Assembly: GCA_016210285.1 (NCBI GenBank)
Contig: JACQUN010000080.1
Coordinates: 1-5,539 of the forward strand
DNA: 5,539 nucleotides
Origin: Chloroflexota bacterium
GTDB lineage: Bacteria; Chloroflexota; Dehalococcoidia; UBA1127; JACQUN01
Direction of reading: 5' to 3'
Positions 2,031 through 5,413 of this stretch are shown here, piece by piece. Under the pieces are notes generated by a model, which was not told the DNA's origin, searched no databases, and saw only the letters and a program-made list of their open reading frames with translations. Made by a program: the position numbers and the translations under genes. Position 1 is the stretch's first letter. Each line of letters starts with the position of its first letter.

Positions 2031-2076
2031 TTCCCGTTTCGGGCACTTCCTGTAAAATGCGGGGCGGAGGTACGGG
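2031..2076 (+). promoter_or_regulatory. Candidate promoter and ribosome binding site of the restriction-modification locus
   Basis: TAAAAT at 2053-2058 is a fair -10 box in otherwise GC-rich sequence. TTCCCG at 2031-2036 is only a weak -35 match, 16 bases upstream. GGAGG at 2066-2070 is a good ribosome site six bases before ATG 2077 and supports that start. The promoter itself is tentative, because it rests mainly on one hexamer. Confidence 0.35.
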
Positions 2077-2688
2077 ATGTCCGCTGTTCTGGATGTCTTC
2101 GGCGAACGATTGCGGGACTACGTGGGCAAGCTGGACGCTGGCCTGGGACACGACGCTCGCCGGGAGCGGTTCCTGGGGTTCCTAAAGGATGCCTTCGCAG
2201 TAGACCTGAGCGCCTACCAGATTGAAGAGCGGGTCTTCACAGGCCCCGTGGATGCTATCCTGGGGGCACTGGTCTTTGAGTTCAAGCGGGACCTGGCCCA
2301 GGAGGGCGCTGACGCTGAATCTCAGTTGAAGCGGTACATCAGCGATTTGCGCAGAGAACACCCAGGGAAGGCCTACACTGGCATTGCTTGTGACGGCCTG
2401 CGTGTCAGGGCCTACACGCCGCTGTACGAAGAGAATGAGGTTACGGTCCGGGAGGTCCGCCTCGTCGGCGAGCTGGATTTGGCTCCCGCCGCGCGCAACC
2501 CGAAAGCGACGGAGAACGCTTTTTCTGGCTGGACACTCTCCTGGCCCACTTCCGGCGGGAGCGCCTGCCCGCGACAACCCAGAGCATCCTGGCAGGCTTC
2601 GGACCGGCCAGCCCAACCTTCCGCATCGCCTTTACACACCTGGCACGGCTCTTCCAGGCGGGCCGCGATGATCCTTCGGTCAAATTGA
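2077..2688 (+). CDS. N-terminal nuclease part of a Type IIG-like restriction-modification enzyme (frame-shifted)
   Basis: This open frame gives 203 residues, of which about the first 148 look like real protein. They form the N-terminal endonuclease domain of a single-chain restriction-methylation enzyme. After a helical start, PVD (57-59) and EFK (68-70) form the PD-(D/E)XK metal-binding core (Asp59, Glu68, Lys70). Q83-x3-Y87 in SQLKRY resembles the extra QxxxY motif of RecB-like nucleases. From about residue 150 to the stop the sequence turns rich in Ser, Pro and Trp without family character, while the -1 frame reads FFWLDTLLAHFRRERLP and runs directly into the methyltransferase part. The true product is therefore probably a fusion with the next entry. 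The start at ATG 2077 has GGAGG six bases away. As written, the gene would make a truncated nuclease domain, or nothing stable. Confidence 0.75.
   Translation: MSAVLDVFGERLRDYVGKLDAGLGHDARRERFLGFLKDAFAVDLSAYQIEERVFTGPVDAILGALVFEFKRDLAQEGADAESQLKRYISDLRREHPGKAYTGIACDGLRVRAYTPLYEENEVTVREVRLVGELDLAPAARNPKATENAFSGWTLSWPTSGGSACPRQPRASWQASDRPAQPSASPLHTWHGSSRRAAMILRSN
2518..2525 (+). other. Frame junction (one base missing) in the restriction-modification gene
   Basis: In the frame of ATG 2077 the codons read GCT TTT TCT GGC. One base back they read TTT TTC TGG CTG GAC, giving FFWLD and a smooth continuation to the methyltransferase. One extra T in the T5 run at 2520-2524 would join the halves. The exact site is uncertain: any loss of one base between about 2480 and 2525 would look similar. 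A slip of the Phe codon TTT back by one base is possible on paper, but no canonical X XXY YYZ slippery heptamer is present. Confidence 0.8.
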
Positions 2689-5336
2689 AGTATGGCCTGT
2701 GGGACCGCTACCTGGCTATCGTCTATGGCGACAGGGTTGGCGACGAAGAACTATTCCTGAAGCACACCTACCTGGCGACCCTGGCCAAGCTGGTGGCCCT
2801 GCACTACCTGTTGCCTTCCATTTCCCTGAGCAGCGACGAGGAGGTACGCGACTTTCTAGCCGGGGATACATTCCTGAAGCAGGATATCGCCAACTTTGTG
2901 GAGGAGGACTTCTTCACCTGGTTCCTGGATAACAAGGACCAAGGGGCAGGGCTCAGGGGTCAAGGGCTTGCTCTGGTCCGCCACCTGCTGCGCTCTCTGG
3001 CCGCCTACGACTTCTCCCAGGTCAGCGAGGACACGCTGAAGGGCCTCTACGAGGTGCTGGTGGACCCTCCAGCCCGCCACGACCTGGGGGAGTACTACAC
3101 CCCCGACTGGCTGGCCCACTACATCCTCCAGGAGGAGCTCAAGCTCCAGGAGGACCCCCGCGCCAGCCTCCTGGACCCCGCCTGCGGCTCCGGCACCTTC
3201 CTCTTCCTGGCGGTGCGCCTGGCCCGGGAGGCCCTGGCCTGGTGGGGGGTTGACCCCGCTGAGGCCCTGCTGCACATCACCCAGAACATCGTCGGGATGG
3301 ATGTGCAGCCGCTGGCGGTGACCATCGCCCGGACCAACTACCTGCTGGCCCTGGGCGATTTGCTGAAGGGCGCGCGGCCTCAGGTGAACATCCCGGTCTA
3401 CCTGGCCGATGCCCTGCGCCTGCCGGAGGTCAGCACCTCCCGCCCCCTGGAGGGCGGCTTCCCGGAGCCTGTCCACACCATCAAGGTGGGGGACGAAACT
3501 TTTGAGCTTCCCGACAGCGTGGTAGCTGACTCCGCCCAACTGGACTATGTGTTCTTCCGGATCCACCAGTACCTCGCAGCGGTCCGCCAGGGGAAGGCGG
3601 CGGGCCGGGAGCGGGAGGCTCTGGATAGGGCAGCCGGTGCCTTCCGCCAAGTCCTTGTTTCATCCAAGCCCAGGTACGCCCTTGACCCTCTGGACCCGTT
3701 TGCCGCTGATGTGGTTGCCCGCACGTTTGTTACCATGGCGTCCCTTGCCCTGGAGGGAAAGGACGATGTCTGGCCCTTTGTGCTGAAGAACGCCCCCCGT
3801 GCTGTTTACTATGCCCGACAAGGATTTGACTACGTTGTGGGCAACCCGCCCTGGCTCTCCTTCCGCTATTTCCGCAGCGCCGACTACGCTCGCTGGTTCC
3901 GAAAGCAGGCGCTGGAGGAGTACCAACTCCTGGAGAAAGGGAAGCCCCACCTCTTCACCCAGATGGAGCTGGCCACCTTTTTCTTCGCCCGCGCCGCCGA
4001 CCTCTACCTGAAGCGCCCTGCGGAGAAGACATCCCGCGGCCGCATCGCCTTCGTCATGCCCCGCTCCATCATGGTGGCCGGGCAGCATGCCCGCTTCACG
4101 TCCTTCTTCTTCAAGGGCGGCTCTCTGTGCCTGAAGCTAGAGAAGCTGCTGGACCTGGAGGGGGTAGAGCCCCTGTTCAGAGTCCCTGCATGCGTCCTGG
4201 TAGCGCAGGTGGGCCCGGAGACAGTCTTCCCCGTCCCCTGCACCGTCTTTCAGGGCCAGCTCCCTTCCCACAACGCTTCCTGGGCCGACGCGGCCCCGCG
4301 CCTGGCGCGGCGAGAGGGCCGGCTGGAGCGGGTGCAGGGCCGGCTGGCGCCCGTAGGGGCTGCCCCTGCCCTGGCCGGGCGCAGCTACTATGCCGACAAG
4401 TTCTACCAGGGGGCCACCATCGTCCCCCGCAACTTCTGGTTCGTCCAGGCGCCTGAGTCGCCCCTGGGGTTCAGCATGGACAAGCCTGGCCTGGAGACCT
4501 CGGAAGAGGCGGCAAGGACGGCCAAGCCTCCCTGGAAGGACGTGCGGATGCGTGGCGCCGTGGAAGCGCACTACCTGTACGCCACGCTGCCCTCGGGCGA
4601 CCTGCTGCCCTTCGGCTACCGGGCGCTGCGCCCCGTGGTCCTGCCCCTGCTCCGGGAAGGAGAGCGCAACCGCCTGGTGACGGCGGACGAGGCCCTGGAG
4701 CGAGGGGACACCGGCCTGCATGCGTGGCTGCACGCGGCCCAGGCCCACTGGGAGCGCCTGGCCAGAAAGGGCCCAGGGGGACAGCCCAAAGTGGCCAGCG
4801 TGCTTGACTGGCTGGACTACCGCCGCAAGCTGACCCGCCAGCGGCCTGGGGCACGGTACAAGGTGCTGTACAACGCTGCGGGCACCAACCTCCTGGGGTG
4901 TGTGGTGGACACGTCTGCCCCGCTGCCGCACCCCGTAGCGGGCGGCTCGCTACCCTTCCAGGGCTTCCTGGCGGAACACAAGACATATCTGTATGAAACA
5001 GACGACGAAGCAGAAGCCTGTTACCTTGCAGGGATTTTCAACGCCCCCTGCGTGGACGAGGCCCTGAAGCCAACCCAGACTCGTGGGCTATGGGGAGAGC
5101 GGGACATTGAGAAGCGAGCTGTAAACCTGCCCATCCCCCGCTACAACCCGTCGGACCCGGCCCACCGGCGGCTGGCGGAGCTGAGTCAGGCCTGCCACGC
5201 CAGAGTGCAGGAGGTCACCCCGGAGATAGCGCAGCGCTACCGGAGCGTGGCTCAGGCGCGGGCCGCCGTGCGGGAGCTTTTGCGGGCGGAGCTGGCGGAG
5301 ATAGACGCCCTGGTGCGGGAGATGATGGGGACATAA
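2685..5336 (+). CDS. N6-adenine DNA methyltransferase and target-recognition part of a Type IIG-like enzyme
   Basis: This part would methylate adenine in a specific DNA site, using S-adenosylmethionine, as the modification half of a combined restriction-methylation protein. Numbering from the TTG at 2685, residues 1-130 are mostly helical. GEYYTP (135-140) resembles motif X and DPACGSGTF (164-172) is motif I. NIVGMDVQPLAV is motif II, and Asp242 in LADALRLP fits motif III. After an insert of roughly 140 residues comes the catalytic NPPW (387-390). This order is that of gamma-class N6A enzymes. Target-recognition-like segments follow (YYADKFYQGATIVPRNFWFV from 568, HKTYLYE from 765, GLWGERDIEKR from 801), and the chain ends in helices. 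TTG 2685 has no ribosome site and lies inside protein-like sequence. The frame is open from 2439 and the real coding sequence enters near 2520 from the upstream nuclease part, giving about 1086 residues in all. No separate specificity or translocase gene is present. Confidence 0.85.
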   Translation: MKYGLWDRYLAIVYGDRVGDEELFLKHTYLATLAKLVALHYLLPSISLSSDEEVRDFLAGDTFLKQDIANFVEEDFFTWFLDNKDQGAGLRGQGLALVRHLLRSLAAYDFSQVSEDTLKGLYEVLVDPPARHDLGEYYTPDWLAHYILQEELKLQEDPRASLLDPACGSGTFLFLAVRLAREALAWWGVDPAEALLHITQNIVGMDVQPLAVTIARTNYLLALGDLLKGARPQVNIPVYLADALRLPEVSTSRPLEGGFPEPVHTIKVGDETFELPDSVVADSAQLDYVFFRIHQYLAAVRQGKAAGREREALDRAAGAFRQVLVSSKPRYALDPLDPFAADVVARTFVTMASLALEGKDDVWPFVLKNAPRAVYYARQGFDYVVGNPPWLSFRYFRSADYARWFRKQALEEYQLLEKGKPHLFTQMELATFFFARAADLYLKRPAEKTSRGRIAFVMPRSIMVAGQHARFTSFFFKGGSLCLKLEKLLDLEGVEPLFRVPACVLVAQVGPETVFPVPCTVFQGQLPSHNASWADAAPRLARREGRLERVQGRLAPVGAAPALAGRSYYADKFYQGATIVPRNFWFVQAPESPLGFSMDKPGLETSEEAARTAKPPWKDVRMRGAVEAHYLYATLPSGDLLPFGYRALRPVVLPLLREGERNRLVTADEALERGDTGLHAWLHAAQAHWERLARKGPGGQPKVASVLDWLDYRRKLTRQRPGARYKVLYNAAGTNLLGCVVDTSAPLPHPVAGGSLPFQGFLAEHKTYLYETDDEAEACYLAGIFNAPCVDEALKPTQTRGLWGERDIEKRAVNLPIPRYNPSDPAHRRLAELSQACHARVQEVTPEIAQRYRSVAQARAAVRELLRAELAEIDALVREMMGT

Positions 5337-5375: not shown

Positions 5376-5413
5376 CCCCCCCTCTCCCTCAGAGGGGGCC
5401 AGGGGGTGAGGGC
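5376..5413. repeat. CCTCACCCCC-type palindromic repeat, right copy (inverted)
   Basis: CCCCCTCT at 5378-5385 pairs with AGAGGGGG at 5391-5398 around a five-base loop, and GGGGGTGAGG at 5402-5411 is the reverse complement of the CCTCACCCCC arm. Relative to 1956-1996 the element is inverted, so the asymmetric arms of both copies point away from the restriction-modification gene. The stem is shorter than in the left copy. Confidence 0.65.

Follow-up and report, generated by a model that had tools for sequence, protein, structure and literature searches.

A Type IIG restriction-modification gene read in two frames on a Chloroflexota contig, very probably a broken or misread copy

The window, meaning the whole stretch of 5,539 nucleotides that was analysed, comes from a bacterium with its nearest relatives among the Chloroflexota. 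Three genes lie ahead of a long coding region that changes frame once, and the features of the locus are as follows.

150–758: small gene for a TlpA/ResA-like redoxin.
764–1090: gene with a GBBH-like_N domain.
1275–1982: alpha/beta-hydrolase gene.
2066–2071, forward strand: Shine-Dalgarno-like GGAGGT, 5 bases ahead of the ATG at 2077 (read directly from the sequence).
2077–2688, forward strand: ORF 1, frame 1, ATG start, 203 aa.
2077–2520, forward strand: native part of ORF 1, a predicted N-terminal PD-(D/E)XK-type nuclease domain of 148 residues (D59, E68, K70).
2439–5336, forward strand: open stretch in the frame one base back (frame 3).
2478–2524, forward strand: interval containing the one-base frame offset, as placed by profile score, codon usage and one conserved column.
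2520–2524, forward strand: T5 run, the likeliest place of the offset.
2520–5336, forward strand: continuation in frame 3 (938 residues), with a helical connector, a gamma-class N6-adenine methyltransferase and a putative C-terminal recognition region.
2521–2688, forward strand: out-of-frame tail of ORF 1, Ser/Pro/Trp-rich and with a negative codon-usage score, ending at the stop codon TGA (2686–2688).
2685–2687, forward strand: TTG, the earliest ATG, GTG or TTG codon of the second frame, overlapping the ORF 1 stop.
3174–3200, forward strand: methyltransferase motif I region DPACGSGTF, intact.
3843–3854, forward strand: methyltransferase motif IV NPPW, intact.

No Shine-Dalgarno-like sequence was seen upstream of TTG 2685, and a tRNA scan of the window was empty. 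A 47-base imperfect inverted repeat (77%) at 5–51 and 1102–1148 flanks the redoxin and GBBH-like genes.

From 2520 onward, frame 3 reads FFWLDTLLAHFRRERLP and is free of stop codons until 5336. It scores above the cut-off for the Pfam families N6_Mtase and Eco57I and matches the PADLOC model REase_MTase_IIG with an E-value of 4.8e-80. A family profile of length 1072 was built from 113 full-length relatives, P0001, P0002, P0007, P0013, P0035, P0059, P0081 and P0104 having been omitted beforehand. The nuclease piece corresponds to profile positions 24–168 (82 bits) and the methyltransferase piece to positions 173–1070 (1127 bits); since both match adjacent parts of one profile, chance is ruled out as the source of the two pieces. 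Besides the window's own piece, 116 of the 119 relatives among the matches listed carry the N-terminal and C-terminal pieces in one chain, and the N-terminal piece is missing from P0007, P0013 and P0035. Together, the two pieces are one gene for a 1086-residue Type IIG restriction-modification enzyme. The first-pass annotation had read the locus as a single-chain gene with a one-base offset, its nuclease motifs in one frame and its methyltransferase motifs in the frame one base back, and the ORFs, the intact motifs, the domain matches and the profile all confirm this. The remainder of the approximately 1086 codons also proved undamaged, as that annotation had stated.

The resemblance to Type IIG enzymes (PADLOC REase_MTase_IIG; BpuSI and DrdV, with MmeI titled Type IIL) extends to an N-terminal PD-(D/E)XK-type nuclease domain and a gamma-class N6-adenine methyltransferase with motif I and NPPW, and the C-terminal region aligns with DrdV and MmeI in the predicted model of a relative. 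Relatives in the family are about 1080 residues long. The window differs in that its chain is broken between nuclease and methyltransferase by the one-base offset, located within about 2478–2523, and so does not occupy a single reading frame. Since the family is single-chain and this copy as read is not, the window copy was classed as a member that is either broken or misread. The nearest genome locus, L020 of genome G001, is 54–57% identical.

The nuclease residues D59, E68 and K70 are invariant in a ten-row alignment. Among 38 wider relatives D59 and E68 remain invariant, while position 70 holds Lys in 14 of them and Glu in 24, so that close relatives show an E-x-K nuclease motif and most of the wider ones E-x-E. 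In a Foldseek search with the nuclease domain alone no match reached E<=0.001, and the best 50 rows contained no restriction enzyme; a second aligner recovered BpuSI, DrdV and BsaXI.

The position of the offset was approached by several routes. The profile score stays within about 2 bits for frame switches anywhere over 2463–2523. Codon usage shifts from frame 1 to frame 3 after about 2500–2523, and is equally flat for switch points over about 2478–2523. Either measure alone was therefore rejected as a means of pinning the offset, both being flat over about 45–60 bases. The second piece opens with a motif that a permissive pattern, [FYL]-[FLYSRC]-[WFLR]-[LMF]-D, recovers from 112 of the 113 full-length relatives, and the residue just ahead of this motif is A (49), V (35), F (10), L (9), I (7), C (1) or T (1). 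In the window this residue is A when read from frame 1 and R when read from frame 3; because R never occurs there in relatives, the T-run at 2520–2524 is favoured. The offset thus likely lies at the T5 run, as judged from a single column that amounts to modest evidence. The earlier placement at this run is favoured by the conserved column and stays unproven, in that profile score and codon usage allow a switch anywhere over about 2478–2523. The accompanying claim that the original frame degenerates past the offset was borne out, with codon usage turning against frame 1 and the tail becoming rich in Ser, Pro and Trp.

A model predicted for the relative P0003 (mean pLDDT of 87) puts these positions into a structural context. 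The offset maps to the first turns of a helix (139–153) that follows the last nuclease strand (121–132). Alignments with Type I M subunits, BsaXI, DrdV and MmeI start at about residue 155–163 of the model, and those with CamA-like methyltransferases only at about residue 300. Since the helix follows the last nuclease strand and the methyltransferase alignments begin at about 155–163, the offset is, on this model, at the border between the nuclease and methyltransferase modules. By chance, an offset would fall within the approximately 46 of 3260 bases concerned in roughly 1–2% of cases, a figure that should carry little weight as the border was identified afterwards.

The arrangement at the end of ORF 1 might be taken for a pair of real genes, one for a small nuclease and one for a methyltransferase, with a TTGA stop/start overlap linking them. 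Coupled, overlapping restriction-modification genes are known, namely EcoKI hsdM and hsdS (PMC3510504), and a nuclease-less relative with intact motifs (P0007, 920 aa) exists. The overlap of the TTG with the ORF 1 stop is less telling than it appears, since TGA after A, G or T always yields such an overlap. With a start at TTG 2685 the methyltransferase core, whose beginning is near residue 155–160 of the P0003 model, would moreover lose its first helices, and ORF 1 residues 149–203 have a negative codon-usage score. Nor was a separate small-nuclease ORF found in relatives: a search for proteins of about 112–355 aa sharing short words with ORF 1 recovered only ORF 1 itself among 274 candidates. 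Relatives that stop near residue 200 and then restart, the case named at the outset as one that would speak for two genes, were not seen among those examined. Two genuine genes are an exceedingly improbable explanation.

Related loci were then compared at the DNA level. Of 132 loci given, 13 were removed as duplicates with an identical 150-residue core and L095 was removed as a further piece of the L020 gene, leaving 118 distinct loci. A locus was counted as one frame when its profile match ran from position 110 or lower to position 990 or higher. This rule alone gave 103 one-frame, 3 split (L004, L047 and L120) and 12 partial loci; L070 was reassigned from one-frame to split because its last 80 profile positions lie in another frame. 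The final tally is 102 loci in one frame, 12 partial and 4 frame-split, with the splits at profile positions 700/706 (L004), 925/948 (L047), 999/992 (L070) and 912/948 (L120). The partial loci comprise six that are truncated where a contig or locus ends (L013, L056, L080, L093, L106 and L121), four distant viral loci with an N-terminal part unmatched by the profile (L005, L008, L009 and L012), and two decayed remnants (L111 and L139). A class-wide search found a match at E<=1e-60 in 37 of 393 genomes, and the matches listed are all without internal stops.

These loci bear directly on programmed -1 slippage at the T5 run, by which a free 203-residue nuclease fragment and the full-length enzyme would be made in fixed proportion. 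Slippage would suit a T5 at the likeliest offset site and a second frame that is already open there, and if true it would lack a precedent among restriction-modification enzymes so far as the literature search goes, since that search, which covered titles and the starts of abstracts, returned nothing on frameshifting in these enzymes. However, no in-frame X XXY YYZ heptamer occurs in 2440–2688, and pseudoknot-free RNA folding of the site's surroundings and of the sequence downstream gave energies like those of shuffled sequences (z of -0.51, +0.39 and +0.30). Nothing is conserved at the site either: the TTT TTC TGG codons of the window are shared only with L042 among the loci compared, L042 is in one frame, and the other loci use different codons. 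None of the 118 distinct loci is split at the window's site, which answers the suggestion that the same offset be sought in related genomes. The three explanations that the first-pass annotation listed still stand, its low rank for slippage is upheld, and slippage is regarded as highly improbable. Non-canonical slippage can occur without a heptamer or a strong stem.

A phase-variable ON/OFF switch has precedent. Homopolymer tracts serve such switching in Campylobacter jejuni cj0031, with a polyG tract of nine (PMC4889913), and as homopolymeric repeats in Helicobacter pylori JHP1272 and HP1353-HP1354 (PMC3936762), so that a frame-disabled Type IIG gene is an already known phenomenon and a change in tract length is known to split Type IIG genes into two frames. 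The window resembles these cases in having a Type IIG gene out of frame, but its tract is a T5, shorter than a G7 and runs of six elsewhere on the same contig. No tandem array lies at the offset site, the one array found in the window being that of a 21-base unit at 4302–4347, and no allele with another run length was seen. With neither a long homopolymer nor a short-unit tandem tract at the site, phase variation is considered very unlikely.

With high confidence, the locus is therefore best described as an ordinary Type IIG gene in a copy that is either broken or misread, and two accounts of the split remain in contention. According to the first, the offset is a base-call or assembly error and the organism's gene encodes an intact single-chain Type IIG enzyme, an account that is entertained seriously though somewhat short of even confidence. 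It fits a single offset in approximately 1086 otherwise intact codons, an offset whose likeliest spot is a homopolymer, and a window that seems to be an entire short metagenome contig. A run of five T is, on the other hand, short for homopolymer errors on most platforms, and longer homopolymers on the same contig keep their frames open. Coding homopolymers of at least five number 27 in the window, and the T5 is the only one to coincide with a frame break; the other 26, among them one G7 and four runs of six, lie in frames that stay open, which disfavours a platform prone to miscalling homopolymers. Of these 26, 24 are informative, as the runs at 1961 and 1969 sit in the last codons of the ORF at 1275–1982, where a shift would be barely visible.

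According to the second account, which is the best explanation offered here and is believed about as readily as it is doubted, an ordinary Type IIG gene recently underwent a single random shift of one base in the real DNA. Against it, the lack of other damage fits an error equally well as a very recent mutation, the nearest protein relative among the best 120 of 7004 matches is 53% identical, and the frame splits seen in relatives may themselves be errors. That the gene decays in nature follows from the nuclease-less remnants L111 and L139/L140, of which L140 has a degraded NPPW motif, and frame splits elsewhere in the gene occur in the four relatives L004, L047, L070 and L120. Because the other coding homopolymers keep their frames open and related genomes carry such decayed remnants, a real indel is slightly favoured over a consensus error.

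If the one-base mutation is real, it would have arisen at the module border of a single-chain gene. Translation from ATG 2077 would then yield a nuclease fragment of 203 residues that ends in a nonsense tail and lacks the recognition part, and the methyltransferase and recognition part would be reachable only from the weak TTG restart, which would cut into the helical domain. Recognition, methylation and cleavage normally share one chain, so that a single offset should abolish restriction and modification at the same time, and loss of both in the window copy is likely as judged from the sequence. The wording of the first-pass annotation, in which a deletion silences a potentially toxic enzyme, is an inference, as one offset should take away nuclease and methyltransferase activity at once. 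With restriction and modification lost together, the loss would presumably be cheap to the cell from the start. One event can in this way deprive a single-chain restriction-modification gene of both cutting and marking, and a real offset in the window would be an early snapshot of decay of the family toward nuclease-less forms. If the offset is instead an error, the locus is a warning to take care when split defence genes are predicted from one metagenome contig.

The nuclease-less relatives P0007, L111 and L140 provide some comparison. As in the window, their nuclease is no longer working together with the methyltransferase; in these relatives, however, the nuclease is absent from the seen sequence, which begins about 10–25 residues past the offset, whereas in the window it is present in another frame. 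The listed P0007 protein begins 22 residues past the offset site, and on its sequence it is possibly a natural methyltransferase-only derivative. Its contig is 168625 bases long and was absent from the searches of 400 and 250 genomes (E<=1e-150). The remnants L111 (genome G371) and L139/L140 (L140 being in genome G788) closely follow a gene whose translation, judged by eye, resembles an asparaginyl-tRNA synthetase.

A palindromic repeat, CCCCCTCTCC...GGAGAGGGGG, flanks the window gene on both sides at 1969–1996 and 5378–5398, the second copy being imperfect. Its pattern has 76 matches per strand in the L020 genome (G001), where a reversed control has 0; G371 has 3 matches, and five further genomes have 0. 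Palindromic elements that enter coding sequence are known from Rickettsia, and the repeat described here looks like an element of this kind. One copy at L020 3193–3219 lies inside the Type IIG gene, where the frame is unbroken and a Ser/Pro/Gly-rich insert is added. A similar-looking insert is found at about the same place in P0006, and P0004 has one near its N-terminal end.
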